DNA of 64,000 bases from Hemileia vastatrix (taxonomy: Eukaryota; Basidiomycota; Pucciniomycetes; Pucciniales; Zaghouaniaceae): the NCBI GenBank assembly GCA_030280995.1, contig JASXTE010000012.1, forward strand, positions 5,961,001-6,025,000. Direction: 5' to 3'. Made by a program: the position numbers and the translations under genes. Positions within the stretch are counted from its first letter, which is position 1. The number at the start of each line of letters is the position of its first letter. Below the pieces are notes generated by a model that saw nothing but the letters and a program-made list of their open reading frames with translations, was not told the DNA's origin and searched no databases. Shown here piece after piece: positions 4,574 to 62,011 of the stretch.

Positions 4574-4574
4574 T

Positions 4575-34953: not shown

Positions 34954-34981
34954 AGGGGGTGTCAAACATTACCATTAACAC
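34954..34981 (+). repeat. Left terminal inverted repeat of giant Harbinger
   Basis: AGGGGGTGTCAAACATTACC followed by ATTAACAC. It matches the inverse of 61980-62008 and of the fragment end at 11863. Confidence 0.85.
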
Positions 34982-34986
34982 CATTC

Positions 34987-35101
34987 TGTTATGTACTCTA
35001 CTGGGCCGCATACTCATGTATATAACTTAAGACCATTTCCTAAAAGTAATTCATTCTATTCTCTTACCAAAACCTCCATATTCCCTTTTCCCGAGACACC
35101 A
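34987..35101 (+). repeat. 5' LTR of Copia-2
   Basis: TGTTATGTACTCTACTGGGC ... GAGACACCA, followed at once by the primer site. Confidence 0.9.
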
Positions 35102-35113
35102 GGTTATGGTCCC
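35102..35113 (+). promoter_or_regulatory. Copia-2 primer binding site
   Basis: GGTTATGGTCCC abuts the 5' LTR. It is the same half-tRNA-Met style as in Copia-1. Confidence 0.7.
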
Positions 35114-35559
35114 TTAACGCTCAGCTCTGCAACAAGTTCTCCCAAATTTCAATTTCTTTTTTTTTCTCTTGTTCTTCTTCAAAATCAAAACTCTGCCAGT
35201 TTCCTTTGGTCCCTCCTTCTTTTTTTTCTTTTTCTCCTTGAAACAAATCCCAGCCAGTTTCTTTTGGCCCAACTTTTTCACTTTTTTGTTCTCCTTCTCT
35301 TTCTCCTTTTCCTTTTTTGTTCCTTTTCTTTCTCTTTTTCCCTAATATTTTTATTAGGAAACCCGGGTTTGTCTTCTTACTAAGACCTACCACGGTTTGA
35401 CGGAGACGTCCCGAACTTCCTTTATTTAGTAGTCTTAACAAATAATAATAATAATAATAATAATAATAAAGAAATATTTCTACTCCACGGGTCAATCCAC
35501 CACTTAGACGGGCACCAAACACACCACCAAGATCTAGACAAACCAACTGACCACCACAT

Positions 35560-36840
35560 ATGCCTTCCCCCTCACCTTCAAACCCTCCCTCTGGCCCCCC
35601 ACACGAAAATGTTCCGGACAATCCCAATGAAGCTGACAATGATGAAACTATTTCAGGGTACCAAACTGGAACCCCCGGTTGTGAAGAACGTGAGGAACAA
35701 AAAACGACTGATGTCTCCCTTGCTCACATCAAAGCCAAAAAGAAGGATTGGCCCCATGTCCTACAATCGGATGGTAGAAATTATCAATGTTGGTACCTGG
35801 AATTACAATTAGTTCTTCTCGACCACATATACAATGAAGATTTTTTCACCAGACGCCGTGCAACATCCATCCCCTCTCATGAAACCCTAGCTTGGGCAAT
35901 ACTTATGAATTTGCTCTCAAAGGATCTCCGACGCCAGTGCATCTCAAAAAAACCAAGCAACAGGGCTTTTGCATACCTAAAAGACCTTTTCAGCGCAAAT
36001 TCAAGAGCCTCTCAACTAAAATTATATCAAAAGATCCACTCCTTAAGACTAAGCTCTTTCTCCAACCCTTCAGCACTGGTCACCAAACTACATGAGCTAT
36101 TTGACAACCTCAAGGAAGAAGGCTACACTTTCACCGAAGATTCAATGTTTTTGATGGTTCTCCAATTCACGGTAGACAATAAATCCGGCATTGCCTCAGA
36201 AGTTCATCAAGAGGCTGAACATGCTATGGAATCATTAAATGCCCCACCTTCATCAGAAAAAATTACCAGGATACTAACAAATGCCTGGGACCGTCATCAA
36301 CACTAAGGCAAACTTTAAGAGTCTCCCACCACTCCTATTCCCAGCACGTCGGCAGTAAACATTAACGAGTCCCCAGAACCCAACATTGACATACAAACTG
36401 ACACAATGAATACACTACACTGCTGGAACTGCAATTCTAATGGCCACCATCAAAACAGATGCCCGATTCCAAGACAAACAAGAATTACATCGGCCCCTCC
36501 TACCCTTGCCCCATCCCAATTCAAGGCTCATTACCCAACTGTCAACTATCCAGTTTTGACCCCACCATATGTGCCGCCTCACAGACAAAATTCTACACAA
36601 TCCTCACAAAACCGGGCCTCCATCAATCCACAACACCAACAAGGCCTCATGGACTCCTACAGGCCCGTCTACCCCAAACAATTACAAAACAAGGACAGTC
36701 CCTCCAAATTTCAGCCACTACAAGCAAAGATAATGGAAATTGGCAACCAACATGAAGCCTCAGCCTCCGACTTCCAAAACCTCACAATATCAGAAAATTC
36801 CCCCCACCTGTTTTTGACACAGGGGCGACTCATCACCTGA
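35560..36840 (+). pseudogene. Copia-2 gag, broken
   Basis: It opens MPSPSPSNPPSGPPHENVPD, then the capsid region with WPHVLQSDGRNYQCWYLELQ and the LSKDLRRQCISKK segment, to a TAA at 36304-36306. After it, a second frame (36406-36840) carries the zinc knuckle CWNCNSNGHHQNRCP and a Pro/Gln-rich spacer. The leader 35114-35559 is T/C-rich and holds a (TAA)n microsatellite at about 35440-35467. The gag length is normal for Copia. Only one or two lesions separate it from an open frame, in line with a young insertion. Confidence 0.85.
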
Positions 36841-39800
36841 CAAGTGCAATTAATGAGTTAGTGAACTTTTCTACCCTACCTGAACCTTTACCATTACAAG
36901 TGGCCACTAAAAATGTTCGCAATTTCATTACAGGGAAGGGAAGCCTTTGTTTTTCTGGACTGGGTGGGACAGTTATCAACATTAATAATGTATATTTCTG
37001 TAAGAATTCCTCACGCACACTTATATCTCCAGTGGCACTTATCAGGGGTGGAGCCTCTGTAGAATGGAATTCTGATAACCAAATTTTTGTTCATTTCACA
37101 GATATGCGTGTACTGAAAGCCACATTTACCAATTGTAGATGGCTGTTTCCATTCCCAAAAACACAACCAAAAACAGACTTACGCTCACTAAAACAATCAT
37201 ACCCTGTAAACTCCATTACTCCAAATGAATCTCACACCCTATACATGTCAGAATATTACCATTCAACCATTCCTTTTGAAAGCCCCCAACTAATCCACAC
37301 TCTTGCTACTCACCAATAAAACGATGATCTCTTATATTACTATCACCGACTCTTTGGCCATGCCAGCCTCAGACAAATCTGAAAACTTATTTCCCTGGAT
37401 ATGGCAAAGGGTCTACCAAAATACATACCTACAGGTGAGATCAACTGTGAAGTATGTAAAGTATCAAAAAGTACCAGACTCTCTGACTTACCATCCCAAA
37501 GTAGAGAGCTTGCCAAGCTAGAGCTCCTCACAGATGACCTCATTGGTCCCCTAGAAGAAGCCACGTTTGACAATGGTCTGTGGGCACTAACTATTAAAGA
37601 TTGCACCACGAAATACACAGAATGCCACATATTAAAAATAAAATATGAAGCTACCACCACCATCATCAATACTATCAACAGGCTTGAAACACAAACAAAA
37701 GTGAGTTTCAAAAGTTTCTGTTCTGACAATAGTGGTGAGTTCATTAAAAAAACCCTATCTGCTTTTTTCATATCAAAAGGCATTATCCATAAACTCTCCC
37801 TACCCTATAATCACAAGCGAAACGGCAAAATAGAATGACAAAATAGATCAGTATTAGACATGGGCAGAACAGTACTCCTTGATAGTGGCCTAACAAATTT
37901 TTCTGGGGTTTTGCTTACAAATGGGCAGCTTACGTGCAAAATCGACTGCCAAATTCTATATGCTCTGAACAAACACCTTTTGAGGCCATGTTTGGTCACT
38001 CTCCAATAGACAACATTATAAGACCTTTTGGTTCTACGGCATACATCCATGTCCCGAAAGAAACACGACTCAAACTTGATCAAAAGGCCAAAAAATGTAT
38101 CTTGGTAGGTTTCCCACAGGCCTCAAAGGGTTGGCTTTTCTGGGACCTTGAGAAAAAAAACTAATAGCTTCAGCATGGGCAGCTTTTGACCCAACACCCA
38201 CACCTCCCTTGGTCAAAATGTTGATAAACAACTTACTAAACCCAATAGAATCCAACATAATAGACCCAATCAACATTAACGACCTAGGCAACTTTGAATC
38301 TGAATGCCTTATAGACAATCAAGAGGAACTACTTGATTCCATTGAGAGAGCATCGTGTTTTCTTTCCTCAACAGCGCCCAAGTCCTTCAAAGAAGCCATG
38401 AGACTACCAAACAGCAAACAGTGGCATTAAGCCTGCACTGAGGAAATGAAAAACATGCAGAAGATGGGAGTTTGGGAAAGAACAAAGCCACCTCTCTTGG
38501 CCAAATTCATGGATGCCAGATGGGTTTTCACAGAAAAACGTGATTCTGATGGAAATCTTGTGAAACTGAAGGCCAGGTATGTAGCCAAGGGCTTCAAAAA
38601 ATTCACGGAATAGAATATCATGAAACTTTTGCGCACACTGCAACTTTCACATCCCAGAAGATAATCCTAACACTTGCTGCACACTACAACTGGCCGGTCC
38701 ATTCTTTTGACGTAACAGAAGCTTACTTACACAGTCCAATCAATGAAGAGATCTATATCAAGGACCCTCCAGGTTTTGAAATAAATGATGGCAAAGCACT
38801 CCTACTAAAAAAAGCATTGTACGGAACATGTCAAGCCGCACAATGTTGGTGGAAACACCTCTCATCAAAGTTAATGAAACTAGGATATCAAGTGTCCCAG
38901 TATGATGCCAGTGTCTATTACCTAAGGCAAGATGGACAAAATACACTGATTTGGGTCCACATAGATGATGGTATTGTCGCAGCAAACAGCCTTGAAGAAC
39001 TACAGAACCTGCAAAATTGCCTGGCAGATGAACTTACAATCAAGTGGAATCCTTCCCTTGACTCCATCATAGGTTTATCAATCAAGCGCATTGATAAAGG
39101 TTTCATCCTTAGCCAACTCACCCTCATAAATAAAATACTAGACAAATTCAGCCATATGTGTGAAACAAAATTGACCCCTTTACCACCATCATTGAACCTG
39201 AAAGTTGCACCCAAAGGATCAACACCTGTGAACGCAACAAACTATTTTTCAGCCATTGGATTGCTCAGCTATGTGGCCAGCGGCACCAGACCAGACATTT
39301 CTTTCAGTGTGAATTTCTTAGCCCGTTTTTCCAAGTGTCCCACAAATGAACACTGGTCCTCCCAGAAATACCTCCTAGCATACATACGCAACACAAAAGA
39401 ACTAACCCTAAACTTATTCCCATCAAACAAAAACATATCAACCATCAATCTCAAGTTTTTCAGCGACTCAGATTGGGGCGGGGAACATTCAAGATCGACC
39501 GGGGGCCACATTGCGCTACTCAACAACTGTCCCATCAGCTGGTCATCCAGATGTCTCTCTTGCGTAGCTACCGCCACCTGCCATGCAGAACTAATGGCCC
39601 TATCTACAGCAACTAAATCTGGCATGTGGATTAAAAACCTGCTCAAAGACATCATTAACTTCCAAGGAACCCTAAATCTTTTTTGTGACAATGAAGCATC
39701 AACAAAAATGGCAAGCAATGAAGGATCAAACAAAAGAACAAGACACATGGAACGGGATTTTTACTATGTAAATGAACAACTCTACAAAAAGAAAGCCACA

Positions 39801-39902
39801 CTAACATGGGTACCTTCAGGAAAACAACTGGCAGACGTAATGAAAAAACCTCTCAACACTTCAACTCACAAAGTCACTCTAGAACAACTACACCTCCTTT
39901 AA
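36800..39902 (+). pseudogene. Copia-2 pol: protease, integrase, RT, RNase H, broken
   Basis: The protease site DTGATHH is at about 36817 and lies in a different frame from the knuckle. GAG-pre-integrase follows (YHRLFGHASLRQI, CEVCKVSKSTR). The integrase core has DDLIGPL, SDNSGEFI and the NHKRNGKIE region, with a stop at 37838. RT has DARWVFTEKRDSDG, KARYVAKGF, a frame change near 38600, then a long open frame 38760-39902 with ALYGTCQAAQCWWKHL, the catalytic HIDDGIV (usual YVDD), TRPDISFSVNFLARF, and RNase H ending RTRHMERDFYYVNE...LADVMKKPL. The 3' half is open, while the integrase half has most of the stops. Confidence 0.9.
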
Positions 39903-40137
39903 TTTTTTTTCTCTTCTTCTCTTCTTCTTCTCTTCTTCTTCTCTTTTTTTTCTCTCAATACCAAACATATAAGCAGATTTTATATTTAGATAAAAAAAAA
40001 AATAATAAATAATAAAAAATAAATAAATAATAAAAACAATAAGAAACACATCATTGCATTACCATTAACTTCTTCTTCTCTATCTGTTATCACTCTCTCA
40101 TAAGTCAATAATCTATAGCGTCTTGCCGAGGGGTGGG

Positions 40138-40252
40138 TGTTATGTACTCTACTGGGCCGCATACTCATGTATATAACTTAAGACCATTCCCTAAAAGTAA
40201 TTCATTCTATTCTCTTACCAAAACCTCCATATTCCCTTTGCCCAAGACAACA
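40138..40252 (+). repeat. 3' LTR of Copia-2
   Basis: Same start as the 5' LTR and ends AAGACAACA. It is preceded by AGGGGTGGG, a likely polypurine tract (40129-40137). Confidence 0.9.
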
Positions 40253-40703
40253 CATTCAAGCAAGCCTCAAAAAAGGCACCAAGTCATTTCAATTATAATT
40301 ACATACCCCATTAGCTGGTATACTTCAACAGCATGATTTTCCCTACACATGCCATCTGTTGGGTACATCCAAGCCCCTCAAGCACTTCTACCCCTTAACT
40401 TGATTGGTCAGAATTAGGTACACACATGCCCATACCTTAAAATTTTTCTTCACCTAATCTTTAAGGGTAAATTCATACATGTGCAGTACCTTATGCATAA
40501 AGTTTTATGCCCCCCCAAACATCATACTCCAACCGTTACTTCCTCCCACCCTTGATTACTCTGGCTCTTATTTTTTTCCTCAAAACACTAACATGACTCC
40601 TTCACTTCCTCAACAGCTTCAAACAACTACTGATGCTCTAGCCCTTGATCTTTTGGTTGAGTCTGATCCAGATTCTGATGCTGAGTTTGATTTTTTTATA
40701 TGA

Positions 40704-41803
40704 GTCACCTGTTAGAGAACCGCTGTGGTCTTACAACATTGGCAGAGGCCTTTGTTGGTCTGTTTCGCGCTGTTTTTTTATGTCTTAATTAACATTGGTT
40801 GAAGAATTAGGTGTATTTTGGTTTATATTCAGTGAATATTGGGACTATGGGTATGTGGGTACTACCATTGCATAGCCCCGGTTTTTCTCTATATTTGATG
40901 TCTTGTTGATATTTTTCATATTCCAAGTTTTAAGGGGTCATTTACTCAATTTTCATTTCTAAAAGATAGCTGTTTAATTTTGTTTTTTGTGTTTCACGGG
41001 CTAACCTTAAGTCTTAGGGTTAAGTGCTTAGTACCATTAATTAGAGCTAATTTGGCTTTATATTTTAATGTCTCAATGTTGTCATAGCTTAATTTTGTGT
41101 TTTAAGGGTTTTAGTAGTCATGGTGGATTTTTCTAAGTATTTTGGGCTTTATTGGAGGTTTTTAGTGGTTTTCTGGCTTCAGGGAGGTCTGGCCACCTCT
41201 AGGGGGGCCACCCGGCATCAGCTGGCCTGTCCGCCTTGGTTATAGAAGGCTGGGGAGCGTTTCTAGAGTGTTTTTATTCAATTTAACTGTCAAAAGCACC
41301 AAATTAGTTGCTTTGCATGGATTTTTTAGGTGGTGGTCTGTGTGTACATACTGAATAAGACAGTTTGGGGCAACTTTAATTATCATACAACCATCTGGTA
41401 ATTATATCATTGTTTCTCACTCAGTTTTCATTTTTTTTTGGCCACAATTGGTTGTGTTTGTTGCAAATTTAGTTCTTCATTTAACTCAACTTTGGCAACT
41501 GGTTTCTCTGGTGTAGCTTTGCAACCTGCATCAAGTATTATTTCTGTTTTCTGTGCAACAAGTGCACAGTGTTTTGTTTTTCTGGTGTAGATCTTTCTGC
41601 ATTTCAGGTTCTCTTTGGTCTGTGGCCAATCTAGGCTACTTTCTTGACTATTAAAGCAGTCAAGAAGTGTGTTGGAAGGGGTATTGTAACAGTCTCTAAT
41701 TTTCTGTAGAAAATAAATCTCACCTGGTATTTCTCAAAGGGACAGGGGTTTTTCTCACCAGTTTTACTCCAAGTCCCTTGGTCAAGGCCTATAGGTAGTA
41801 CTA
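40704..41803. other. 1.1-kb sequence interrupting the transposase
   Basis: It separates two adjacent parts of the transposase. It has no ORF, is T-rich on the plus strand, begins TGTTAGAGAACCGC near 40709 and ends near TAGTACTACA (41800). It could be a solo LTR (TG...CA) or a very long intron. I could not find a clean target duplication, so I leave it unassigned. Confidence 0.45.
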
Positions 41804-42125
41804 CAGGATTGTCTATACTGCTACCTTACTTCCCAAACCCCATATATACACTTCAAAAACTTTCTGAAATACCTGATCCCAGTTTTCAGAAAATTTTCCA
41901 AACTACTTATCATGCTTTTAAATACCTACATGATTTGATTCATGATCATTCTATTTACCATAACAATTTTCATTGCCCACAGAAGGACCCTGAAATACAA
42001 ATCTCTATGGCACTTTGCCAATTTGGCTCAAATAGGAGCAGTGCTGCTATAACTTGTCTCAAGAACCTCTTCAGTATAAGTCATGGAAAAGTATTTTTAT
42101 ACACCAAGAGAACCATCAAAGCCAT

Positions 42126-42363
42126 CACCACACAATATGGGGGGCAGACTTGCTAGCAGGTCCACAACCTTGGACCCAAACTCACCACAGATTGAACACA
42201 CATTGAGATATTGATTAAAGAACCATACAATCAGGGATGAACACCACTTAGAAGAACAGTTTTAGGTGGGTCTTCAAGTATAGTTCAGTATGGGTTCAGT
42301 ATAAGTTCATCTGAGTTCAGGTTGAGGACTTGCTAGCAAGTCCACCCCCTATATTGCATAGTG
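42126..42363. mobile_element. CACTA-like MITE, copy 2 (238 bp), TSD CAT
   Basis: Starts CACCACACAATATGGGG and ends TATATTGCATAGTG, with CAT on both sides (42123-42125 and 42364-42366). It matches copy 1 at 12252-12500. It splits the transposase between ...IKAI and the codons equivalent to NSLES in the related element, so the site before insertion can be read from protein alignment. Confidence 0.87.
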
Positions 42364-43075
42364 CATTGGCTAACTTCAATCACAATTCCTCACATGGCCC
42401 ACTAAGGAGGTTAGACTGGAAAACTCACAGGTCATGCAAAATGAAGGATCCCCTGGATGTATTGGTTTTGTTGATAGCACAACCATCCCTTTGAGCCAAA
42501 AGCCTGCAGAGGATGGAAATAATTATTTTGATTGGAAAAAGAGGTCAGTGATTATCTATATCTTACATATTCTTACATCTAATAATTATCCACTCTTACT
42601 TTTTCTATTTTCAGCTATTCTGTTGCTCTCCAATTGGTTTGTGATATAAAAAAGAAGTTTATTGCATTCCATGCTGGCTTTCCTGGTGCACACCATGACT
42701 CTCCAGTTTTTCAAAATTTGATGATTTATAAAAACCCAGAGAATTACTTTGATGAACATAAAAATCTTCTTTCCAACTCTGCTTACACCAGTGATACATA
42801 TGTGAACCCAGCATTTTATGGGGCTGGTGATGAAAATAGTGAAAAATAACAATTCAACACTCATCTTTCCAAGTCTTGAGTAAAGATTGAACATGCAACT
42901 AGAATTTTGAAAGGTCAATTTTATTCACTAAGGGAAATGAGGACTCCTCTTTTTAACCAGAAATAAATGAAGGTTATGGTCAATTGGATCATTTCATGCT
43001 TGATAATACATAAACTCCTTGCACACTTAAAGGATGAATGGAATGATCATTATGAAGACAAAACTCACAACCCCC

Positions 43076-44540
43076 CCCCACCCCCCAACTATTGAATCAT
43101 CCTCCAGTTCTTCATCCTAACCTGGTGGAATGTGTGCTAAAGTTCTCCATATCACTCTTTCTCACTTTGAAAACACAGATTAATTATCTACTAGTACTAA
43201 AGTTTTTTCTTTATTTCTTCTTTGATATCATTAGGGTTTTTTTTGGATTATGCACTTATAGTGATTAGAGTTGTTTATTCCTTTGTTACATTTCAACATG
43301 TAAGTCTGCTTAACATTCAAGTAAATACATGTTTCATGAATTTTTAATCTTCAAAGGGAGATATTTTGTCTTTTTATCATGTATATACATTTAAAAAAAT
43401 TTCAAACCAAATCAGAAAAAAAAAATGGCAATACCCTCCTCTACAATTTACTCTGGGAGGGGGTCAGGATTGCCAAATTTTCATTTTTATTTCATAAATG
43501 AATAAATAAATCATTCAAAATAGATAATCAACCAAGTAAAAGTAATGGTATTCAGAATACTATCAGCCAATGAGTTCAGATGTGACCAGAGCCAAAGAAT
43601 ACATTGAAATGGAATTGTATTTTGAACTCATTCAAAAAAATAATTGTTTGAATGATTACCATTTACACAGCAGCAAGGCCAATGGACCATTATTAAATTT
43701 AATTATTATCTTTAATGAATGATTTTTTTACAAATTTTAGAAATGAAAATGAGAATTTAGCAAATACTTTAGTTTCCATACAGCTTTACTTTTCACCAAA
43801 CCTTCTTGCCTAACTTTAATTACCCTCTTTATTGAAATATGGTTTATCTAGAAAGAGCAACCAAAATGAGTAAACTTTTCACAAGATGCTAACCCAGGAG
43901 GAGCTTTAGTTGTTTGATGGTTATCTTGAAAAATTATGTCAAATAAATGAATCAGCATTCACCACAGGAAATCTAGGGATGAATTGCTAGCAATCCTCTC
44001 TCTTGAAATTTAGAGTGTCCCTTAATTATGCCAGGTTTATGAATACTTTATAAACATAAGTAAATTAGAGTTAGATTTACATTTATTCTCAGATTGATTA
44101 TAGACAGAATATCAACTGATTCCAAATTATGCACAAGTTGATCCTCCAGAACTTGATTTTGGTCCTCTGTTGAGCACAAATTGAGCACAAATTGATCTAA
44201 CCTAAGCTTATGCATATATAATAATTCAGGATACTTGCTCTATTAAATTTGATAATAAAATAAAATATTGATGAATTTATATAAAAAATAATTATTATGT
44301 AAGATATTAAATTATAAATTTAGGCATCATAGGAGGGCACTTAATAGAACTTAATTATACTATGTGACACCTTCATACTGTATCACACTGTTTGAAACAT
44401 TTAAAACAAATTGTGTCATTATGGGCAATGAAATTGCTTGGACAGACACTTTCAAAATTAATACTGACCATAATACACAAGTATGAAACCTTGGCATCTA
44501 TCCAATAAAAGATTTTCCTTCTGATAAATGGATTTTTCTC
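43076..44540. other. Non-coding interior of giant element
   Basis: Starts with a C-rich tract (43071-43086). An inverted pair GGCAATACCCTCC / GGGAGGGGGTCAGGATTGCC lies at 43428-43485. The same GGGAGGGYATTGCC motif occurs twice in the element at 48868. The rest is AT-rich with no gene. Confidence 0.5.
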
Positions 44541-47500
44541 AGTTACTCCCTGCTAAAAAGTGTCCTTGTGAGGTTTGTCTGACCTTCAGGGGGGTAATTT
44601 GGCCACATCAAACTACTTCTATTTCCATGATTGACCAAAACATCATCCTCATTTCCATCAAAAGAGTTGATCTCATCTGACTGTGGCTGATCAAAGGGGT
44701 CCACCACAAGTTTAGCCAAAATTTTGGTGAACACTTTTTTGATGGATAGTGACTAACTGGTGCTTTCCAAAATTGTCCACCTGAAGTTAGGCTAAACTTC
44801 AGGAGGATAAATTTATTATGAATACCAAATTAACTGAAGAATACTTTTGCCCTAGCTACTCTGCATCATAAAAGTGTCCAACTGAGGTTTCGCCATAATT
44901 CAGGTAGACACTTTTGGAAAGGCACAATATGATGGGTTTAATATCTATATATGGCAATAAGTATCAGTTTTTTATCAACATGGAACTAGAATTAATTTAA
45001 TATGGCCAAAGTGTCCACCTGAAGTTTGGCCAAAATACAGGTGGAAATTTTTATGAGGGTTACTTGATGAAATGAAGAAGACTTGCAATTACTTTCCATC
45101 ATAAAATTTTCAAACTTAAGTTTATCAAAAATTGTGGTGACACTTTTGCCAGATCCAGTCATATGGGATCAACTCTCTATATGGCAATGAGAATCAATTT
45201 TTAGTCAATCATGGCATTAGAAGTAATTTGATATGGACAAACTTTCCACCTGATTTTTGGCCAAAAATAAGTTGGAAATGTTTATTAGGAATACTAGATT
45301 AACTAAAGAAGACTTGAACCCTTCTACTGTCCATCATAAAAGTGTCCACCAGAAGAATTCTCAAACTTGTGGTTGACACCTTTGGCCTGGTCCAGCCATA
45401 TGGGATCAATTCTGCATATGGAAATGAGGATTTAATTTGGTCAATCATGGTACTAGAAGTAATTTGATATAGACAAAGTGTCCAACTAAATATTGGAAAA
45501 AAATCAGTTGAAAACTTCATTTAGTTTTTCAAAAAATCAAATTAAGTACAATTTTATTCCTGATGATGCCCATTTTATCCAACACCTCTTCTGAGACTTG
45601 AAAGTAGGCATTTAGCTTGAATTTTAAATTTCATATAAAATCCCCTTTATTCAACCTATTTCTTTTTATCCCTTTTTTTTTCTTTTAGATATCAATTAAT
45701 TTTATGTAAAACAAATCATTTTCATAATTTTATACCTGTATTTAATAAAATTATTAAAGGTTTAACATCACCCTGTAAGCATTTGGCACATGTTTTTTTG
45801 TTATACTAATAAAAATAATAATATACTGGTGACAAAAAATTGATTAAATGGTAAAATATTAATAAAACAGAAAGATCAAATACCAGTGGATATGTTTTAA
45901 AAAAATACCAGTTGCACTGAAGAAGAGCTGCACCCTAGATACTCACCATCAAAAAAGTGTCCAGCACAAGTTTGGCGGAACTTGTGCTGGACACTTTTGG
46001 TCAGGTGCAGTCATATGAGATCAATTCTTGCTATGGCAATGAAAAAAATTATTTGATAAAAAACTTCACTAGAAGTAGTTTAACATAGCCAAATTTTCTA
46101 CCTAGAGTTCATCCAAACCACAGGTGCACAATTTTTAATCTTTAAAAAAATTCAATTTAGTACAATTTATCCCTGATGGCTCTCATTTGCTTCAACACCT
46201 CTACTGGCCTTTGATAGTAGGAATATTACTTGGATTTCTTTTTTCATATTTGATCCCTTTAACTTAATTTTTTATTCCTAATATTGCTTTTGGATATCAA
46301 TTAATAATTTTTAAAATAAAATATTTCCATATTTTTATACATTTATTTAATAATATTATAAATGGCATAACATCACCTGGTATGCATTTCGCACATGAGT
46401 TTTTTCTATACTTATAAAATTAATAATATAATGGCGACCAAAAATTAATCAAATGATATTTATGAGTGAGGAACAAAGATAAAATACCAGTAGACATGTT
46501 TGTAAGAAATACTAGATGAACTGAAGAAAAATTCTACCCTAGCTACTCTCCATCATAAAATTGTCCAGCATAAGTTCGGCCGAACTTGTGCTGGATACTT
46601 ATGGTCAGGTGCAGTCAGATGGGAGAAATTCTCTCTATGGAAATGAAGATAAATTTTTGATAAAAAATTAAACTAGAAGTAGTTTGATATGGGAAAATTT
46701 TCATGCTGAAGTTTTGGTGAAGCTCAAGTGGATTTTTTTTTATTTTTACAAAAAAGAAAATTTAGTGCAAGTTTAGCCCTGATTGTGCTAATTTGATTCA
46801 ACATCTCTTTTTTCTGTTTATGGCAGGAATTTAACTTGGAATTTGATTTTCATCTTTGATTTCTTTTATTTTACTTTATTCCTCTCATATTGCTTTTGGA
46901 TAGAAGTTTATTTTTTGTAAAATAAATCATTTTCATATTTTTTTACCTTTATTTAATAATATTATAAAAGGTGTAACATCACCCAGTATTCATTTGGCAC
47001 ACAAGTTTTTGCTATACTGATAATATTAATAATATAATGGTGACAAAACATTAATCAATTGATAAATATGAGTGAGGCACAAAGATTTAATAACATTGGA
47101 CATGTTTATAAGAAATTCCAGATGATTTAAAATGACTTGCACCCTGGCTACTCTCCATGATAAAAGTGTCCAGCACCAGTTTGGCCAAACTTGTGCTGGA
47201 CACTTTTGGTTGCATGCCCTCAGATGCAATCAATTCTTTTTATGGAAATGAGACTGAATGATCACTCCATCATTGAAATGAAAGTAGTTTTATATGGATA
47301 AATTGTCCCCCAGAAGTTTGTCCAAACCTAAGGTAGACAATTTTTTACTTTGGTAAAAAGTAAATTTGATCCATGTTAATCTATGATGGTGCCCATTTTT
47401 TCTGAAGCCTCTACTGGCTCATGATAGCAGAAATTATACTTAATATTTTTATTTCATGTGTGATCTCTTTAATTTTAATTTTACCCTTTTATTTATCCTT

Positions 47501-50256: not shown

Positions 50257-50603
50257 AAATATTAGCTGAAACATAGTTTTCAATTCTGTAAAAACAGTTG
50301 TAAGTAATAGAAAAAGTCACTGATTTTTTTTATATGTAATCTGAAATTTTTTAATAAAATTATTGTATTTAAGAATTGCAATATTGTCAATCAATCTTTA
50401 TTGATCAACTTAATTTAATAAAGTATTATTTAAATAAGTTGCTTCAAAAAATACTTTGCATTGAACCTAGTTTCTAGACTTGATCTGCATTTTGGCTTAA
50501 GGAATTGTCATTACTTTAAAAGTAGTATACTTGACATATCTTATTTATATATTAATTAATTTATGTAATTATATTGTATTTTGATGACTTTCACCCTTTA
50601 CTT

Positions 50604-50785
50604 CAATAAAATGCAGGGGAGGGTATTGCCAATTTTTTAAATCTGACATGTGAAATTGATGACTTAGAAAAATTTGGTGGTACCCACCCCTTGTTTCAAT
50701 AAAATGCAGGGGAGGGCATTGCCAATTTTTTAAATCTGACATGTGAAATTGATGACTTAGAAAAATTTAGATAAGCAAACTTATT
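50604..50785. repeat. 93-bp tandem duplication in family A
   Basis: CAATAAAATGCAGGGGAGGG at 50604 recurs at 50697, followed in both by ATTGCCAATTTTTTAAATCT and a shared 'gacttagaaaaattt'. Confidence 0.9.
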
Positions 50786-50922
50786 GACTAGAAAGTAAAG
50801 ATAGAAAATTTTTATTATACATTCAAATTTTTGTCAAAAATAACGTACTATATTCTTTTCCTTTTATAAGTCAGCATATAAGAAAATATTACCAAAATTA
50901 AATTAACTAGAAAAACAATTTA

Positions 50923-52237
50923 TCAATTGAAAAGGTCAAGTAATTTTTTAATGTCCTCATAAGATTGGCCATTTTTAACACATTCCATAATGAAATCTTT
51001 TTTTTTAAAACTCTCTTGTTTTTCCAATTCACAAGTAGCCATTTCTCTTTGAAATTGACGGTCATTTACTCTTTCCATCTGCTCTACCTCAAATTTTTTT
51101 TCTTCCAAATCTAAGGCTTGCTGATCTTTCCTTAGCATATGATCAAACTTCATCTTCTCAAAGTCAAGGGCATTATTTGCAATAGTTGATTTCGCTGAGA
51201 AAATTAAATTGAAATAAATAAATAAATGAGTTAATGATTAAGATATATAGTAAACAAAACTTACTTATATCTTTTTTTTCAAAATAATCCTCAAGGGAGC
51301 CAAATGAGCTTGTTGAAGTATTACCACGTTTTAATAGATGGTTCAAGTTCATTGAAGTTGAGGCTCGACGCTTTAGTTTGGAGTTTGAACAAGAGGCTTC
51401 AGGAAGTTCTTCTAAAGCAGCTTCTAAAGAGGTATTCACATTTCCAGAATTGAGATTATTTAATGGAGATTGAGTTTGAGTAGGAGGAGACTAGAAAGAA
51501 AGAGAAATTCAGAGAAGAATTGAAGAAAAAACAAAAAGTAAACATACATTTAAATTTTGGGCCTCTGAGGATTCAGATCTTCTGCGATATAATTTTTCTG
51601 CTTGATAGTTGGGATCATCTTCAGCTGAACTATGGTTAGAAGGTGGAGGGGATTGATCTTCTTCAAGTAAAGGTGTGTTGGGAGGATTATAGGAAGGTTT
51701 GGATCCAGAGGGTATATGCTTAGTAGTATCGTGTAGAAACCAAGGGTTTACATCAACTCGGGTGCCAAAAAGATTATCCATTTCCTCATAGAAAGGACAC
51801 ATGACATTGAGCTTTTTGGAAACAGTAGTAATTCCAATCTCCAAATCATCATCGTCAATACCAAAGCCAGTTTCATTTACAGCATGATGAGTCTTTTTAT
51901 ATTTTGAATGGTAACTCTTAAATCTCTCCTTCATTTGTTTAGGATTGATATCGATTCTCCCCCTTGTTTTCTTCCTTACTTCATTGGCCATCAACAAGTA
52001 GCCATTAACCTTTGAAGAAGGTGGACGTCCAATACGAGTGGACTTTTCACATCCAAAACATGCTTCAAAATTTGATTTTATTTTAAGGAAGTTGATTATG
52101 ATGAGATAATCATCCTTTTTAAGCTGACCTGAACCTGCCTTTGATTTTTCAGGTGTAGGGCTTGCTTTACGAGGAGACTTTTGTGACGAAGCAGATTTTT
52201 GAGTTACCTTTTGAGATTTGGAATGTCTGGGAGGCAT
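50923..52237 (-). CDS. Harbinger accessory protein (Myb/SANT- or NAM-associated-like), 395 aa, intact
   Basis: Three exons on the minus strand, 52237-51548, 51490-51265 and 51194-50923, are joined by 57-nt and 70-nt GT-AG introns (GTATGT..TTTCTAG and GTAAGT..TTCTCAG). They total exactly 396 codons including stop, with all phases matching. The start MPPRHSKSQKVTQ is a Ser/Lys-rich basic tail. Residues about 45-140 form a SANT/Myb-like trihelix-type segment (LKKDDYLIIINFLKIKSNFEACFG, NPKQMKERFKSYHSKYKKT). The middle is acidic/Pro/Ser-rich, and the C-terminus is a Glu/Gln/Lys coiled coil (LDFEKMKFDHMLRKDQQALD). This design matches the second protein of PIF/Harbinger elements, which helps transposase reach DNA ends. 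It converges on the truncated transposase, and its promoter would be the right terminal region. Confidence 0.82.
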
Positions 52238-55200
52238 TATGAAACTGGCACATAACAAGAAAAAAGATTAAAAAGTAGAAGAAATAAGTAAAAAAGAATG
52301 TAAACATGCCTGGTCAAAATATTGAAAATGTCAGGAAGGGGTGTGTGCCGAGGATTGATGGGTAGGTAGCGAGGAAGGTCAGTGTGTCACATGTGACAGG
52401 GATGGGGTAAGAAAGGAAGGGATGTTTTGTGGCCAAAATGTGGTTGTGAAAAAAAACGGGAAAAAAGTGCTGATTTGAGGTCATAACTGACACCCTTTTT
52501 TAAAATAAGTGACTTTTTTGCAAAATTTAAGTGCTGATTTGGTTTGAAATCCGCACTTAATTTAAGTGCGGATTTGCCAGAACTGACACCCCCTAATGAT
52601 GACAAAAAATTAATCGAATGGTAAATTTAAATGAAACAGAAAGATCAAATACCAGTAGAAATGTTTATAAGAAATCCCTTTTGAGTTTAAGAAGATTTGC
52701 TGTATGCCTACTCTCAATTATAAAAGTGTCCAAGCATATTTTTGGCCAAACTTGTGCTGGACACTTTTGGTTGCATGAAGTCATATGAGATAAATTCTCT
52801 CTATGGCAATGAAAATGATATTTCACTCAATTATTGAAGTAAAGAATGTTTAATATTTTAAAATTGTCCCCTGGAAGTCTTTCCAAACCTCAGCTCAAAA
52901 TTTGTTAGCTATACATAAAAGTAAGTTTAGACCAAGTCTTGACCTAGGGGTCCCCAACTGTCCCAACACCACTTCTGGCTCTTGATAGTAAAATTTTACT
53001 TGTATTTTTAATTTTGTATTTGATCCCATTTATTTTCATTTTACTTTTCTATTACTCTTTTTAATTTTAAATATCAATTTATTTTTTTAAAAACTAAAAA
53101 TATTCATATTTTTTTAACTTTATATAATAATATTATTAAAGGTGTAACATCACCAATTTTGCATTTGGCATGCAGGTTTTTGCTATACTAGAAACATTAA
53201 TAATATATATGGTGACAACTAATCAATTATAAGATAAATATGAATGATACAAAAAAGTTAAAAAACCAATAGAAATGTGAAAAAAAAACTGATCTACTGA
53301 GAAACACTTCCACCCTAGCTACTCTCCATCATAAAAGTGTCCAGCACAAGTTTGGCCAAACTTGTGCTGGACACTTTTGTTCAGGTGCAGTCAGATGGGA
53401 TCAATTCTCTCTGTGGAAATTAAATTTAAAAAAATACTAAATAATTAAATTAGAAGTAGTTTGGTATGGCTGAATTATCCACCTTGAGTTTTTCCAAACC
53501 TCAGGTGAAAAATTTTTTATCTTTAAAAAAAATTAAATTTTATCAAATTTAGCCCTGATGGCACCCATTTGTTTCAACACCTCTACTGGCTCTTGAAGGC
53601 AGGAATTTTTCTTGAATTTTTCTTTTTCATATTTGATCTCTTTTACTTTACTTTTTTATCACTCATGTTACATTTGGATATTAATTTATAATTTTGGAAA
53701 AAAAATCATTTTCATATTTTTTTAACATTTTTTAATAATATTATAAAAGGTGTAATATAACATGGCATGCATTTGGCGCACAAGTTTTCTCTATACTAAT
53801 AAAATTAATAATATTCTAATGACCAAAAATTAATCAGATAATAAAATATGAATAACACAGAAAGATCAAATACCAGTTGACATGTTTAAAAAAAATAACA
53901 GTTGCACTGAAGAAGACCTGCACCCTAGCTACTCTCCATCATAAAAGTGTCCAGCACAAGTTTGTCTGAACTTGTGCTGGACACTTTTGGTCAGGTGCAG
54001 TCAGATGAGATCAATTCTCTCTATGGAAATGAAAAAAATTATTTGATAAGAAAATTCACTAGATGTAGTTTGATATAGCTGAATTATCCACCTAGAGTTC
54101 ATCCAAACTACAGGTACAGAATTTTTTATCTTTAAAAAACAGTCAATTTAGTACAATTTATCCCTTATGGCTCTCATTTGCTTCAACATCTCTACTGGCC
54201 TTTGATATTAGGAATAATACTTGGATTTCTTCTTTCATATTTGATCCCTTTAACTTAATTTTTTATTCCTCATATTGCTTTTGGATATCAATTAATAATT
54301 TTGAAAATAAATTATTTTAATATTTTTATACATTTATTTAATAATATTATAAAAGGTGTAACATCACTCAGTATTCATTTGGCACACAATTTTTTGCTAT
54401 ACTTATATAATTAATAATATAATTAAGACAAAAAATTAATCAAACAATATGTATGAGTGAGGCACAAAGATAAAATACCAGTAGACATTTTTTTAAGAAA
54501 TACCAGATGAACTGAAGAAAAATTCTAACCCAGTGACTCTCCATCATAGAAGTGTCCAGCACAAGTTTGGCCGAACTTGTGCTGGACACTTTTGGTCATG
54601 TGCAGTCAGATGGGATCAATTCTCTGTATGGCAACAAAAATTTTTTTTTATCAAATTTCACTAGAAGTAGTTTGGTTTAGCTGAATCATCCACCTGCTGT
54701 TCTGCCCGATATCAGGTGTATAATTTTTTATTTTTAAAGAAAAGGTCACTTATTACAATTAAGCCCTGATGGCTCCCATTTGCTTTAGCACCTCTACTGG
54801 CTCTTGATAGCAGGAATTTTACTAGTATTTTTTTCATATCTGAACTCTTTGACTTTTATTTTACTCTTTTATTCCTCTTTTTACTTTTAAATTTCTATTT
54901 AATTTTTGTAAAACTAATCCTTTCCATATTTATTTACATCTATTTTAAAAAATTATTGAAGGTATAACTTCACATGGTATGCATTTGGCACACAAGTTTT
55001 TGCTATACTAATAACATTAATAATATAATGGTGATAAAATATTAATTGGATGATAAATATGAAAGATACAGACTGATCAAATACCAGTAGACATGTTTAT
55101 GAGAAATACAAGATGAAGGAACTGAAGAAAATTTCCACCCAAGCTACTCTCCAATATAAAAGTGTTGAGCACAAGTTTGGCCGAACTTGTGCTCGACACT

Positions 55201-56900
55201 TTTGGTCACGTGCAGTCAGATGGGATCAATTCTCTCTATGGCAACAAAAAAAATTTTTTTTATTAAACTTCACTACAAGTAGTTTTTTTTAGCTGAATCA
55301 TCCACCTGTCATTCTTCCCAACCTCAGGTGTATAATTTTTTATCTTTATAAAAAAATGTCACTTATTAAAATTTAGCCCTGATGGATCCCATTTGTTTCA
55401 ACACTTCTACTGGCTCTTGAGAGCAAGAATTTTACTAGTATTTTGTTTCTCATAATTGATTTCTTTGATATTAATTTTACTTTTTTATTTCTCTTTTTTT
55501 TTTAATATCTATTTAAATTATTGTAAAGATAATTTTTTTCATATTTTTTTAATTTTATTTCATAATATTATAAAAGGTGTAACATCACCTGGTATGCATT
55601 TGGCACATGAGTTTTTTCTATACTTATAATATTAATAATATAATGGTGACAATAAATTAATCAAATGATATATATGAGTGAGGCACAAAGATCAAGTACC
55701 AATGGACATGTTTATAAGAAATACCAGATTAACTGAAGAAAAATTCTACCCTAGCTACTCTCCATCATAAATGTGTCCAGCACAAGTTTGGCTGAACTTG
55801 TGCTGGACACTTTTGGTCACATGCAGTCTGGTGTGATTGATTCTCTCTCAATCATTGCACTAGAAGTTGTTTGATATGGCTAAATGGTTCTGCTGATGTT
55901 TTGTTAAACCTCAAATTGGCACTTTTTTGTTTTTCAAAAAAGCAATTATAATCCAAGTTTAGTGCCACTGGTGAGCGTTCACCCTAACATGTCTACTTGC
56001 TCTTGATGGCAGTAATTTTATTTTAATTTTTTATTTCATATTTGCTTCCTTTAATTTTACCTTTTTATCCCTCATATTGCTTTTGTATATCAATTTATTT
56101 TTTGTAAAACAAATCATTTTCATATTTTTTTACCTTTATTTAATAATATTATAAAAGGTGTAACATCACCCGGTATGCGTTGGGCATGCGAGTTTTTGCT
56201 ATACTTATAATATTAATAACATAATGGTGACAAAAAATCAATCAAATGATAAATATGAGTGAGGCACAAAGATCAAATACCAGTGGACATGTTTATAAGA
56301 AATACCAGATGAACTGAAGAAAAATTCCACCCTAGCTACTCTTCATCATAAAAGTGTCCAGCACAAGTTCGGCCAAACTTGTGCTGGACACTTTTTGTCA
56401 CATGCAGTCTGATGTGATCAATTCTCTCTATTGCAATGAAAATGAATTTTTCTTCAATAATTGCACTAGAAGTTGTTTTATATGGCAAAATTTTCATCCT
56501 GAAGTTTAGGTAAAGCTCAAGTGGATTTTTTTTTATTTTTACAAAAAAGAAAATATAGTCCAAGTTTAGTGCCACTGGTGGGCGTTCACCCCATCATGTC
56601 TACTTGCTCTTGATGGCAGGAATTTTACTTTAATTTTTTATTTCATATTTGATCCCTTTAATTTTACCTTTTTATCCCTCATCTTGCTTTTGGATATCAA
56701 TTTATTTTTTGTAAAACAAATCATTTTCATATTTTTTTACCTTTATTTAATAATATTATAAAAGGTGTAACATCACCTGGTATGCGTTGGGCACACAAGG
56801 TTTTGCTATACTTATAATATTAATAACATAATGGTGACAAAAAATCAATCAAATGATAAATATGAGTGAGGCACAAAGGTCAAATACCAATTAATCAATA

Positions 56901-58100
56901 GTTCTTTTTAATATTTTAAATTTTTTGATTAAATAAAATGGTAATAATGAATTATATTTTTCATCCACAATTCCACTCTAATGATTCCCACTGCACAAAA
57001 AGGGTTCACTCAGTCCTTTCTTTACTGCTTGTGCATATATTTTATTTCCCACAGTACTACAATTTTTTGTAGTGATTATCCCACATCTGATTCAGGAATA
57101 TTTTTGAACAATATAAGTTTTTTTTACAAAAGACCTTATCATATCCAATATCCCACAAAAAATACAACCTGTTTTTGTATTAAAACCCATTAATTATTAA
57201 GAAATTGTTAAAATAATTAGATTAGACCCTGGCACAGCTAGATCCATACCAACCGACCTAAAGTCTTTTCAATATTGAAAACAATTAAATAAAATTATGG
57301 GCACCAACCATAATTCAGCACTTCTCATTTGCTCTGCTACAAAATGAGTGCATGTAGCATTTTTCTAATGTTGGACTGTTTTTCTTCCTTCCCTCACACC
57401 TTTAGTCCAGAATGAAAATTTAGTATGAGTTTTGGTCAAGTTGGTTTGCCAGTGTTATCTGTATGCAATATGAATTCATATTGCATATTTCTATTTATGC
57501 ATAAAATATACTTGTTAAGCATCATTTTTTTGCATTTTTCAATCATTATGCATATTTATGGATATGGATATGCATATTAATTATACAGATTTATATGCAT
57601 ATTAATATATTTTATTCATATACATATATGCACTTTTTTTTTGCATATTCAATATGCATATTTTTAATGAATATTCAATATGCATATTTTTTATGCATAA
57701 TCACTATGCATATTTTTATGCATATTTTTTATGCATATTAATTCTTCATAGTCATTATGCATACACTTTAGATAGGCATTTCACATCAATTTTTAACATG
57801 CAATAAGTATCCACCATGCAAATTCAAATGCATATGCATCTATATCATACACACAACATATATTCAAGTTTAATATTTGAATATTAAGGTATGCTAAGTG
57901 ATTTTGTTCAACCTTTTGCCAAACCTGAGATTAACTGATGTTCAATGTGGTTCCTAAGCTCTGCTCAAGGAGGGATTGTTCTGGATTCAATCTGTGACAG
58001 TTTATTTTTTCAATGTTTTTTCATCAGATTTAAAAACATATTTCTGACAGTTTCAGGATGGTTTCCCAACAGTTTCCTGACAAATTCCTGATAGTTTCAA
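56901..58100. other. AT-rich interior of giant element
   Basis: No gene is supported. It lies between the satellite and the 150-bp array and includes the ATGCATAT cluster at 57460-57850. Confidence 0.5.
57460..57850. repeat. Cluster of ATGCATAT motifs
   Basis: More than fifteen TATGCATA/ATGCATATT-type words occur in under 400 bp, in both orientations because the core ATGCAT is self-complementary. Confidence 0.8.
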
Positions 58101-58474
58101 ATAGAGGGAACTGCTAGCAGTTCACCCCCAGATTTCCCATGGTGATTGTAGTGGGCATGTTTCCAGAAGGTTTCAAAAGGAAAAAAAAACTTACCAAAAA
58201 CTCTCAGAAACAGTGTAGAATTGTTTTGGAACTGTTTCTGAAGCAATTTTGAAAAAAAAGTTGGTAAAAATGCTCCAAAATGTGCTGGGCTTGCTCCCAA
58301 AATTTTTCTAAAGCTACAAAAAAAAACTTACCAAAAATTCTTGGAAACAGTGTAGAATGATTCTAGTACTTTTTCCAAAGCGATTTGGTAAAAAAAAGTT
58401 AGTAAAAACACTTGGAAACAAGCTGGGAATACCACCAGCACATTTCCAAGGCTAAAAAAAAACTTGATGAAAAC

Positions 58475-59279
58475 TGTCAGCCAGGCTACTAGACTTACCC
58501 AGTGAAATAATTAATTATTTACTGGATGAAGCCGTACCTTATCATTTTAATTATTATTTAATTATAATTTAGTTACATTAAAATCAGTTATAATAAATTA
58601 ACTAATAACAGAATGATAAAATTAAATAAATAATTAAAATTAAAATATAAAATTGTCCCTTATATTTTTCTCTAACACCATGCTCATTTGACAGGTTGGA
58701 AAAAATAAAAATTTATATTAAAAAATAGATATTAAGTTAAAATAAGGTCTTAATATTCAAATAATATTAAATATATACAAAAAATTCAAATTTCTTATTT
58801 AGAATTGACTTCTACAGTAAATATTAAATAAATTGTGTATTTCTGACATACTCTGTAAATACATCTTTTTGACGCCTTCTTTTTAGAATAACTTTATTAT
58901 TTGAAAATACTCCTTCTGGAATATTCTTTTCTCTCTCTCATACTACTGTTTTTAGAATTTGATTGCCGTGCTTTGTCTCTCCTTTGCCTATATAAGGCCC
59001 CTCTTTTTGTTGTCTTTTAATCATTCCTTTACTACATCACTTTATTACAAAAATAACAAATCAAAAACTTATTCTTATAATCTATACCATTAGTATTTAC
59101 AATACGTAACTCTAATATTTAATTTATATTGATATTTTAATCATACCTCTTTTAATTGAGTAAAATAATCATCCTTGATTTAAGAGATACATACAAATTT
59201 GTTGAGAGTCCATTTAAACCTTTAAAATCCTTGTAAAAACTTCATACCAAGACTTCTAGACCAAAAGCGTACCTTGACA
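58475..59279 (+). mobile_element. Solo LTR, second family (805 bp), TSD AAAAC
   Basis: It runs TGTCAGCCAGGCTACTAGAC ... GTACCTTGACA, with AAAAC on both sides (58470-58474 and 59280-59284), cutting a 150-bp repeat unit whose halves rejoin. A TATATAAGG box lies at 58989. It has no internal genes. The internal part was lost by LTR-LTR recombination, the usual route to solo LTRs. Confidence 0.85.
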
Positions 59280-59445
59280 AAAACACTCCAAAACAGTGTA
59301 GAATCATTCTGGGACTGTTTCTGAAGCAATTTGGAAAAAAAAGTTAGTAAAAAAACTCCAAAATGTGCTGGGCATGCTGCCAGCATGTTTCCAAGGCTAA
59401 AAAACAAAAAAAACATACCTTAAATGCTTGGAAACAGTGTAGAAT

Positions 59446-60937
59446 TGTCAGCCTGAATATCCCAAGGACTGAGTAAAAAGTACTTATAAGTTATGTTAAA
59501 CACATGGACTATACATGGGAGCAATAAATTAGAGTACACAAATAGTATACATAAGTAAATTTATGATAAAATACAAAATATGCCATTATAACACCTTATA
59601 TACATTCATATATCCACCTTTTACAAGTCTTATGTACTTAATATTAAGTTGGAATACTTTAGGGTAATCTTAAGAACCTTAAATATAAGGCTACATAATT
59701 TTTAAGTAGACTTAAAACTGTTGTTTTCATTATTTTATGTGAAAAACAAGAAATGCGCTTTAAATCACTTAAAAGTTGACTATATGCACTATAAATTTAA
59801 TAATATTAAAAATGAGCTTTGACAAATCAATTTTTCTTAATTAGGGCTATTGATTCAGCTACTCAAATGAATAAAAATAAAACTTTTCAAATTTGGTGTT
59901 TTTTATGCCAGAAATGGCTTCTGTGTACTGGCCACATAATGCCTGCATTTTTCCCATGTGAATAGCTTCATTTTTATAAAAGTTATCTTTTTCGCACTAT
60001 AAATACCCCACATTCTATGCCCACTGTGGGGAAACATGCTAAAATAGGCAACAGGCACTTATTTGGTGTCCTAGTTTAATTACAAATGCATTGACCCTTA
60101 TTATATGCACTAATTTCATTAATAACCTCAAGCTTGGTGCTTTAATTCACCACCATGCTTAAATTTGCCTAAATTAGTCAAGGATTTACCCATGCAAGCA
60201 CCTGACAAGGACTGCATGTAGTTACCCCACATCTCACACCCTTTTTTGGGTTATTCAGTGGTTTCTCAGTCAATTTTGGTTATTTTTGAATGGGGATTTC
60301 ACATAGTATAATGTCATGATTAGCCCCATCATTTCTACTGTTAATGCCCCTTAATATGGAGTAATAATTAGTCTTAATTTTCCCTTTTAGTCATTTATTT
60401 TAATGTATTACATGCATATACTCTCTTTTTTGCTTATTCTTTATTTTTGATGAATTATCCCTATTACTGCAGGATTTTGGCAGGTGATATCATTCTAATT
60501 ATGATATTGGTAACTATTTATGTTGCCGGAAATGTCTATTAGTTGGAATGAGGCATCATTAATCATTTATAGAGCTGGTAAATCAAGGGGTTTATTGGGG
60601 AAGTTATTTTGTATAAAAGGAGGGGGTTTTTGGTCTTGTTTTCTACATTCTTTATCATTACAATCAAACATATAACCAATACAATTAAAATACATATCAA
60701 TATAAATTATAAAGTCTTTGAATAGTATCTGAATTATTAAATCTATTTTTCTACCAACTATAAGATTGTAAGCCATATATAATTAGTGAGATTAAAATTA
60801 CTGAGACCCTTATATTGTGTTATGATTTAATACTTATTGGATTTTTACTACAGTATTCATATAGGACCATTAAAATCTTCTAGAGAACTGACCATTTCAA
60901 GCTAGCTCACATCATTGTACTTGATCTCAGCCTGACA
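59446..60937 (+). mobile_element. Solo LTR of the Gypsy-1 family (1492 bp), TSD AGAAT
   Basis: It runs TGTCAGCCTGAATATCCC ... ATCTCAGCCTGACA, flanked by AGAAT (59441-59445 and 60938-60942). The flanks rejoin a 150-bp repeat unit (CAGTGTAGAAT|TATTCTGG). It matches the 5' LTR at 4575-6069 over its full length and keeps a good TATA box, TATAAAAGG, at 60612. Confidence 0.93.
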
Positions 60938-61460
60938 AGAATTATTCTGGTACTGTTTCCAAAGCGATTTGGAAAGAAAGAAAAGAAAAGAAAAGAAAAA
61001 AGTTAGTAAAAACACTTGGAAATGTGCCGGGCATGCTTCCAGCAGGTTTCTGAGGCTAAAAAAAAACTTAACAAAAACACTTGGAAACTGTGTAGAATTA
61101 TTCTGAGACTGTTTCCAAAGCAATTTGGAAAATAAAAGTTAGTAAAAATGCTTGGAAATGTACTGGGCATGCTTCCAGCATGTTTCAAAGGCTAAAAAAA
61201 ATTAAAAAAAAAACTTACCATAAATTCTTGGAACCAATGTAGAATTGTTCTGGTATTGTTTTCAAAGCAATTTGGAAAAAAATACAAAAAAAAAAGAAAA
61301 AAAAAGTTAGTAAAAATGCTTGGAAATGTGCTGGAAATGCTTCCAGCACATTTCAAAGGCTAAAAAATAAAAAAATAAAACTTACCAAAAATGCTCAGAA
61401 ACAGTCTAGAATTGTTCTGGGACTGTTTCCAAAGCAATTTGGCAAAAAAAAACCAAAAAA

Positions 61461-61979
61461 AAGCCTTAAAAAAGGGAAAAAAAAGAGAAAAAAGCAAGTA
61501 AAAAGAAAAGCAGGATCAGTTAGCACTCACCTTGGGTAAGTGTTGGAAGGGGCTTGAAGAGAAAAATGAGGAACATGTGAAGCTGTGGAGAAAAAGAAAA
61601 AAACATACCATGATGAAAGGGCAGAGAAAGATGTAAAGAGGAAGAGAGTTGGGAGAATCTAGAAGGAGAATTGAATGATGATTAGGATATGCATTAGGAA
61701 ATGCGTTCAGAAATGTGATATGGAAGAGTTTCAAGGGAATGAGTTTAGGGCCTTTATGAATATATAGCTTTTAGCAGGATTCCAGGATGATTTGGGGTTG
61801 GGGGTAAAGGGGTCTGATGTGCAGTTGATTGCTGAAACATGTGTATTGGTGGCCTGAATTGTGGTTGGGGTTATGGTGCAAGAATAGGAAGTATTTGACC
61901 AAATTTTTGACATGTCTAACCTCAAGGCTACCATTTATGATGGCATCTTGGAATGGTGTTTTGTGAATGAAGTCTGCCA
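61461..61979. other. Right subterminal region of the giant element
   Basis: On the minus strand it shows leader-like C/T-rich DNA with splice-like signals: ATG|GTATGTTTTTTTC..CTCCACAG at about 61615-61585, and CAAG|GTGAGTGCTAAC at about 61533-61520. This is where family A has the start of its accessory gene, but no protein resembling it remains. The part from about 61790 matches 11641-11863. Confidence 0.5.
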
Positions 61980-62008
61980 GGCATATATGGTAATGTTTTA
62001 CATCCCCT
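61980..62008 (-). repeat. Right terminal inverted repeat of giant Harbinger
   Basis: Its minus strand reads AGGGGATGTAAAACATTACC then ATATATGCC. It has two substitutions against the left end in the first 20 bases. Confidence 0.85.
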
Positions 62009-62011
62009 GAT

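Follow-up and report, generated by a model that had tools for sequence, protein, structure and literature searches.

In a 64,000-nucleotide stretch of the genome of the rust fungus Hemileia vastatrix (assembly GCA_030280995.1, contig JASXTE010000012.1, positions 5,961,001 to 6,025,000; hereafter the window), two pieces of a gypsy-type long terminal repeat (LTR) stand 27 kb apart. The question raised by this locus is whether the DNA between them (34954-62008, plus strand, 27,055 bp) is a single Harbinger-type transposon of unusual size, as an initial annotation of the sequence had proposed. Reported mean lengths of autonomous elements are about 3.5 kb for Pangu and about 4.1 kb for canonical PIF/Harbinger (PMC4482050; this and the other papers cited are used here in excerpt). 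Our analysis suggests that a PHIS transposon of about 5 kb entered the gypsy LTR, decayed, and later took in at least six further insertions that bring the sum to 27 kb, a reading to which we assign a probability of roughly 93%. The proposed element size of 27 kb could not be upheld, as the element's own sequence, which lies in pieces between the nested layers, amounts to at most about 4.8 kb.

The LTR family has three copies in the window, one at 4574-6069 (minus strand), one at 59446-60937 (plus strand) and the third split into a 5' piece (34855-34953) and a 3' piece (62012-63063), both on the plus strand, the latter stopping about 335 bp short of the usual family end. The triplet GAT closes the 5' piece (34951-34953) and stands immediately before the 3' piece (62009-62011), thereby flanking the outer element on both sides. 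As initially claimed, the two pieces fit end to end, joining without gap or overlap beyond the GAT, and the joined LTR aligns gaplessly across the junction with both of the intact copies. The accompanying statement that the intact LTRs run continuously through the cut point was correct for length, with no gap, but not for the triplet itself, which is ATA or ACA in these copies rather than GAT; out of 1118 windows of three adjacent columns, 10 show a match as poor as that between GAT and the intact LTRs.

A search of the genome to which the window belongs (747.6 Mb in 791 contigs, with the window at C103:5961001-6025000) found the LTR site pattern ACAANNNGTATACATAAGT at 3833+3880 places. Among the first of these places listed, the target triplet was mostly ATA or ACA, with GTT occurring nine times and GAT once. 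An uninterrupted LTR copy with GAT, L029, reads exactly ACAAGATGTATAC at the site. Over the first 473 bp it matches the joined split LTR at 88.4%, the closest of the LTRs compared, and beyond them at 74.8%, where other copies reach 77-80%. The existence of this copy shows that GAT is a natural pre-insertion sequence and that the duplication is 3 bp long. A different LTR copy, L024, holds a relative of the outer element 2 bp from the window's cut point; this relative has its own AAT duplication, and its host LTR is continuous once the element is left out. The initial annotation had named unrelated sequence at this position in further LTR copies as contrary evidence; what was found belongs to the outer element's own family, and the two insertions together indicate that this family has struck the position on at least two occasions. 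The point itself (GTATACAANATGTATAC; window 34943-34953 continued from 62009, and L024) is a near-palindrome and possibly a preferred target.

The ends of the outer element, AGGGGGTGTCAAACATTACC (34954-34973) and, inverted, AGGGGATGTAAAACATTACC (62008-61989), agree at 18 of 20 bases, in accordance with the terminal repeats first described, and the end motif has three matches in the window versus 0.09 expected from shuffles, the third at 11844-11863. A window fragment at 11670-11863, next to ATT/AAT, is a right end of the same family. The DDE_Tnp_4-type relic reported inside the element is also present. The broken transposase gene (41817-42846, plus strand) has a helix-turn-helix-like part, then a nested miniature inverted-repeat transposable element (MITE), then a DDE_Tnp_4 part, and the relic at 42586-42846 matches PF13359 with E=4.1e-8 (33.4 bits versus a cutoff of 24.8). 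A TET-like open reading frame (ORF) is reduced to a remnant of 46 codons, one of them a stop (43788-43925, minus strand), which ends beside the EnSpm-type insertion described below. Protein searches with the transposase relic gave 0 of 1108 candidates at E<=0.01, a search of the PDB with one piece of it returned nothing useful, an IMG/VR scan for the exact end motif gave no matches, and a literature search, judged from titles and the start of abstracts, yielded no paper describing this locus.

Comparison with the two-ended relative L010 defined the element's own sequence, all on the plus strand. It comprises the left end (34954-34986, whose final five bases are the copia duplication CATTC; 90.6% over 34954-34985), a block at 40253-40724 (85.7%), the transposase gene (84.5% over 41817-42126 and 89.5% over 42373-42790) and a block at 43305-43959 (82.7% up to 43928). 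These are followed by a tandem repeat of about 168 bp, with its first part at 58148-59440 and its remainder, together with the right end, at 60938-62008; relatives carry this repeat too, at variable length. The aligned blocks within and after the repeat are 58152-59448 and 60938-62008, with 61121-62008 matching L009 at 77.3%. Throughout, the blocks keep the relative's order from end to end and the breaks coincide with the edges of nested elements; subtraction of the nested inserts leaves 4,766 bp, of which about 1.8 kb is tandem repeat. This arrangement bears on the possibility that recombination between two insertions joined the LTR halves and transposon ends, such that the inside was never one insertion. 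An abundant LTR family, a same-family element only 2 bp away in another LTR and the loss of about 0.33 kb inside the outer element would all suit such an event, but the same unusual GAT on both sides, an LTR that resumes at the very next base and own blocks that follow the relative's order make it quite improbable.

Five insertions separate these blocks. The first is a copia element (34987-40252, plus strand) with 115-bp LTRs (34987-35101 and 40138-40252) that are 96.5% identical and a target-site duplication of CATTC (34982-34986 and 40253-40257). Among 120 listed relatives of its protein, the best named were those of Austropuccinia psidii, at 41%, and Puccinia coronata, at 45% over 63% of the query. 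An insert of about 1.1 kb (40725-41816, edges approximate, with ACCGCT/ACTGCT at the edges) is absent from most relatives, and L012 has a different insert at that point. The MITE (42126-42363), which has CAC..GTG termini and a CAT duplication (42123-42125 and 42364-42366), lies inside the transposase gene; a second window copy of it, at 12252-12500, has the duplication AAT. The intact plus-strand LTR at 59446-60937 is a solo gypsy LTR within the 168-bp tandem repeat, flanked by AGAAT (59441-59445 and 60938-60942).

The layer between the MITE and the tandem repeat is an EnSpm-type element (43960-58144) with CACCAC..GGTG termini (GTGGTG in copies) and an ATT duplication (43957-43959 and 58145-58147). 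It is 14,185 bp long, or 10,455 bp without a second Harbinger-like element that it contains, and it wholly encloses an interrupted array of a 606-bp satellite (44557-56891) whose monomers are about 73-87% alike. When the monomer at 54420-55025 was searched against the genome, at least 39 other full-length matches of 97-98% were found among the 40 scored of 1912 first-look candidates. Recurrence at this level, despite 73-87% within the array, shows that whole arrays have been copied as units. Six of the matching places were fetched, giving both ends at three, on C42, C26 and C103, and parts only at the other three. In the three complete copies, similarity to the window runs from bases 43959-43960 to 58144-58145, at 93-97% identity; their termini are CACCAC..GTGGTG, their flanking triplets TGT/TGT, AGA/GGA and AAA/AAA, and their lengths 8,543, 10,482 and 6,255 bp, respectively, the shorter ones being without inner parts. 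EnSpm-type copies with a satellite interior were seen in the region pairs L047/L048, L053/L054 and L055/L056.

These same-ended copies elsewhere indicate that the satellite array is the inside of a dispersed transposon and not an outgrowth of the Harbinger-like element. In the initial annotation, growth to 27 kb had been ascribed to satellite expansion together with nested insertion; the nested insertions hold, but the satellite belongs to the interior of the separate EnSpm-type element. That the transposon itself swelled to 27 kb by expanding an internal satellite would fit the position of the array between the outer ends and the variable length of the relatives' own 168-bp repeat. The 606-bp array, however, occurs in 0 of the 11 relatives compared by block alignment, its monomer has 39 further matches of 97-98% against 73-87% between monomers of the array, and the copies on C42, C26 and C103 lie outside any Harbinger-like element, which already refutes the proposal and leaves it very improbable. 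Leaving aside the second Harbinger-like element, 43960-58144 contains no stop-to-stop ORF of at least 120 amino acids, as would also be the case in a non-autonomous copy; the EnSpm-type element is apparently non-autonomous. Ends CACTACAATCACC at 43953/58153, which lack a duplication, were considered for this 14.2-kb block and rejected, as the copies gave CACCAC..GTGGTG at 43960/58144 with ATT.

Within the satellite sits the second Harbinger-like element, which spans 3,727 bp (48868-52594) and is flanked by AAT (48865-48867 and 52595-52597). Twelve other monomers run through its insertion site uninterrupted, two of them with a one-base gap nearby, and the EnSpm-type copies in L047 and L053 are continuous across it, with AAT present once. 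The element carries an N-terminal transposase piece (49125-49706, plus strand), 43% identical over 109 amino acids to the outer relic, and a Myb/SANT-like ORF (52237-51512, minus strand; Myb_DNA-bind_4 E=0.0017 and 19.1 bits, below the Pfam cutoff of 27), a protein search with which gave 0 of 129 candidates at E<=0.001. Assignment of the transposase piece at 49 kb to the outer element was rejected, since it is part of 48868-52594 and the outer relic lies at 41.8-42.8 kb. Pieces related to the second element sit at other satellite points in L051 and L057, and a related end with a transposase piece lies next to ATT/AAT at 14148-14783 (minus strand) of the window. Inside the element, 49850-50255 is a 123-bp tandem repeat of 3.3 copies that are 98% alike, with the palindrome CTCTGTTCTTCGGGCGAAGAACAGAG.

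Across the genome, the end motif of the outer element occurs at 982+940 places with at most two mismatches, while the reversed control gave 0. We sampled relatives from 20 fetched regions, six chosen for closely listed ends, four that are parts of two larger pairs and ten 6-kb single-end stretches, accepting ends with at most five mismatches; five of the ten single-end stretches yielded a second end. The 11 copies with both ends measure 2,226-6,294 bp, a range that the selection of the six skews towards short copies, and nine of them have identical 3-bp duplications, the unequal ones being L009 (AAT/AAG) and L012 (ATT/AAT). At 31 of the 33 ends in the fetched regions the preceding triplet was AAT or ATT (ATT 17, AAT 14, CTT 1, AAG 1). 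The transposase of L013 scored 20.8 bits, below the DDE_Tnp_4 cutoff of 24.8. The second ORF of L014 (2298-2711, minus strand), one of four proteins scanned, matches PF20515, a Tet-like 2OG-Fe(II) oxygenase, with E=2.2e-12. Six further two-ended copies (L009, L010, L012, L013, L021 and L027) hold related sequence, often with stops, and TET-like pieces were also found in L016, L023, L026 and L028. A Myb/SANT domain was not recognised in this family.

Matching duplications flank six insertions in the window (GAT, CATTC, CAT, ATT, AAT and AGAAT). An assembly join across the 27-kb span was considered because long repeats are where assemblies fail, but matching duplications at six insertions would not arise from a false join and the array monomers differ by 13-27%, enough for long-read placement, which leaves this explanation barely credible. 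In the sequence of events that we propose, a cut-and-paste PHIS transposon entered the gypsy-type LTR at GAT, duplicating three bases, as the uninterrupted LTR copy shows. It comes from a high-copy family, sampled copies of which have a DDE_4-type transposase and the tandem repeat of about 168 bp, and often also a TET-like dioxygenase ORF. The window copy then decayed, its transposase and TET-like genes becoming broken, and received in its decayed state the copia element, the 1.1-kb insert, the MITE, the satellite-bearing EnSpm-type element and the solo LTR, with the EnSpm-type element itself taking in the second Harbinger-like element. We infer that the 27 kb was at no time mobile as one unit, and we infer likewise any order of the layers beyond simple nesting. 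The layering is ordinary nesting in a genome rich in transposable elements (TEs), in which the outer element itself is of ordinary size and about 22 kb consists of later layers; since TEs account for 47-92% of rust genomes in one study (PMC12210899), deep nesting is expected.

Several observations weigh against this reading of a small transposon filled by later layers. About 0.5 kb of the element's own sequence (42791-43304) aligns poorly to L010, and next to the EnSpm-type insertion about 0.33 kb that relatives possess is absent, so that its own bases are not all accounted for. The 1.1-kb insert is without clean ends, and the GAT duplication of the window copy departs from the AWT pattern of its family. 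The layers are read from the assembly alone, and no second allele was seen in a search with the right flank (63064-64000, a repeat), for which the best other match among the 40 scored of 7621 candidates was 88%; this search did not extend to the left flank. Finally, larger family copies exist on C34, where one copy measures 15.9 kb and end pairs stand 16.7 and 26.5 kb apart, so the 27-kb window copy is not alone as a large family member. The joined flanks of the 15.9-kb copy align unbroken to the arms of other copies, and the 16.7-kb pair surrounds this copy. Duplications match in all of these cases, which for the 16.7- and 26.5-kb pairs is weak evidence alone because only AAT and ATT are in common use. 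The 15.9-kb copy (L015 and L016; C34:5616519-5633185) lies within another family member, 76 bp in from its end.

The DDE_Tnp_4-type relic, the inverted ends alike at 18 of 20 bases, the 3-bp duplication and the empty site in L029 place the outer element in the PHIS superfamily, and we make the assignment at that level only. The description of the locus as Harbinger-type was accordingly right in that one PHIS-superfamily insertion runs from 34954 to 62008, but its duplications are not the TWA of PIF/Harbinger. The described groups duplicate TWA in PIF/Harbinger, ANT in Pangu and AT in ISL2EU (PMC4482050), and Pangu is named Harbinger2 in Repbase (PMC12730594). Canonical PIF/Harbinger elements share with the outer family a DDE transposase of the same superfamily and 3-bp duplications (PMC4482050); they differ in their TWA targets, where we find GAT for the outer copy, AAT or ATT at 31 of 33 relatives' ends and AAT for the nested element, and here a Myb/SANT-like ORF was seen only in that second, nested element, with a score below the Pfam cutoff. 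Pangu is similar in its 3-bp ANT duplications, ends starting with AG, DDE transposase and occurrence in fungi (PMC4482050). The relatives, the empty site of L024 and the nested element all fit ANT, whereas the outer copy has GAT and its relatives carry a TET-like ORF, the second ORF of Pangu being one for which the excerpted account reports no known motif.

PHISTA, a TET-positive Harbinger lineage of rusts including Austropuccinia psidii with TA duplications, likewise combines a PHIS transposon with a TET/JBP-type dioxygenase gene (PMC12730594), and the outer family carries such a gene. In contrast to the TA that defines PHISTA in that source, paralogous empty sites of the outer family give 3-bp targets, GAT in L029 and AAT for L024. 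The TA of PHISTA may, however, be a shifted reading, as A..T ends flanked by AWT place TA on either side of an inner GGGG/CCCC, and the two readings are distinguishable by empty sites only. We tentatively consider that the outer family represents a PHIS lineage distinct from the TA-type PHISTA, TET-positive and with AWT duplications of 3 bp, or else that PHISTA's TA is so shifted, and that a ready-made satellite array has been spread by an EnSpm-type element; as a whole this proposal is somewhat doubtful. Like the rust EnSpm (CACTA) elements (PMC12730594), the satellite carrier has CAC..GTG termini and 3-bp duplications, and it differs from them in having no recognised transposase and in consisting largely of the 606-bp array, which takes up about 8.6 of its 10.5 kb.

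The locus illustrates that nesting can give an element its apparent size, and that most layers can be delimited to the base by means of other copies within one genome. An EnSpm-type transposon moving a ready-made satellite array is relevant to the seeding of satellites, and a Harbinger-like AWT family with a TET-like gene to the way in which rust transposons gained enzymes acting on methylated cytosine; these by-products may matter more than the nesting itself. Elsewhere in the window, 6634-7614 contains 92-bp repeats, both tandem and inverted, around GAGGCGACATGTCGCCTC, and an ORF at 18130-18630 (minus strand) has an isochorismatase domain (E=3.3e-9) and is possibly a host gene.

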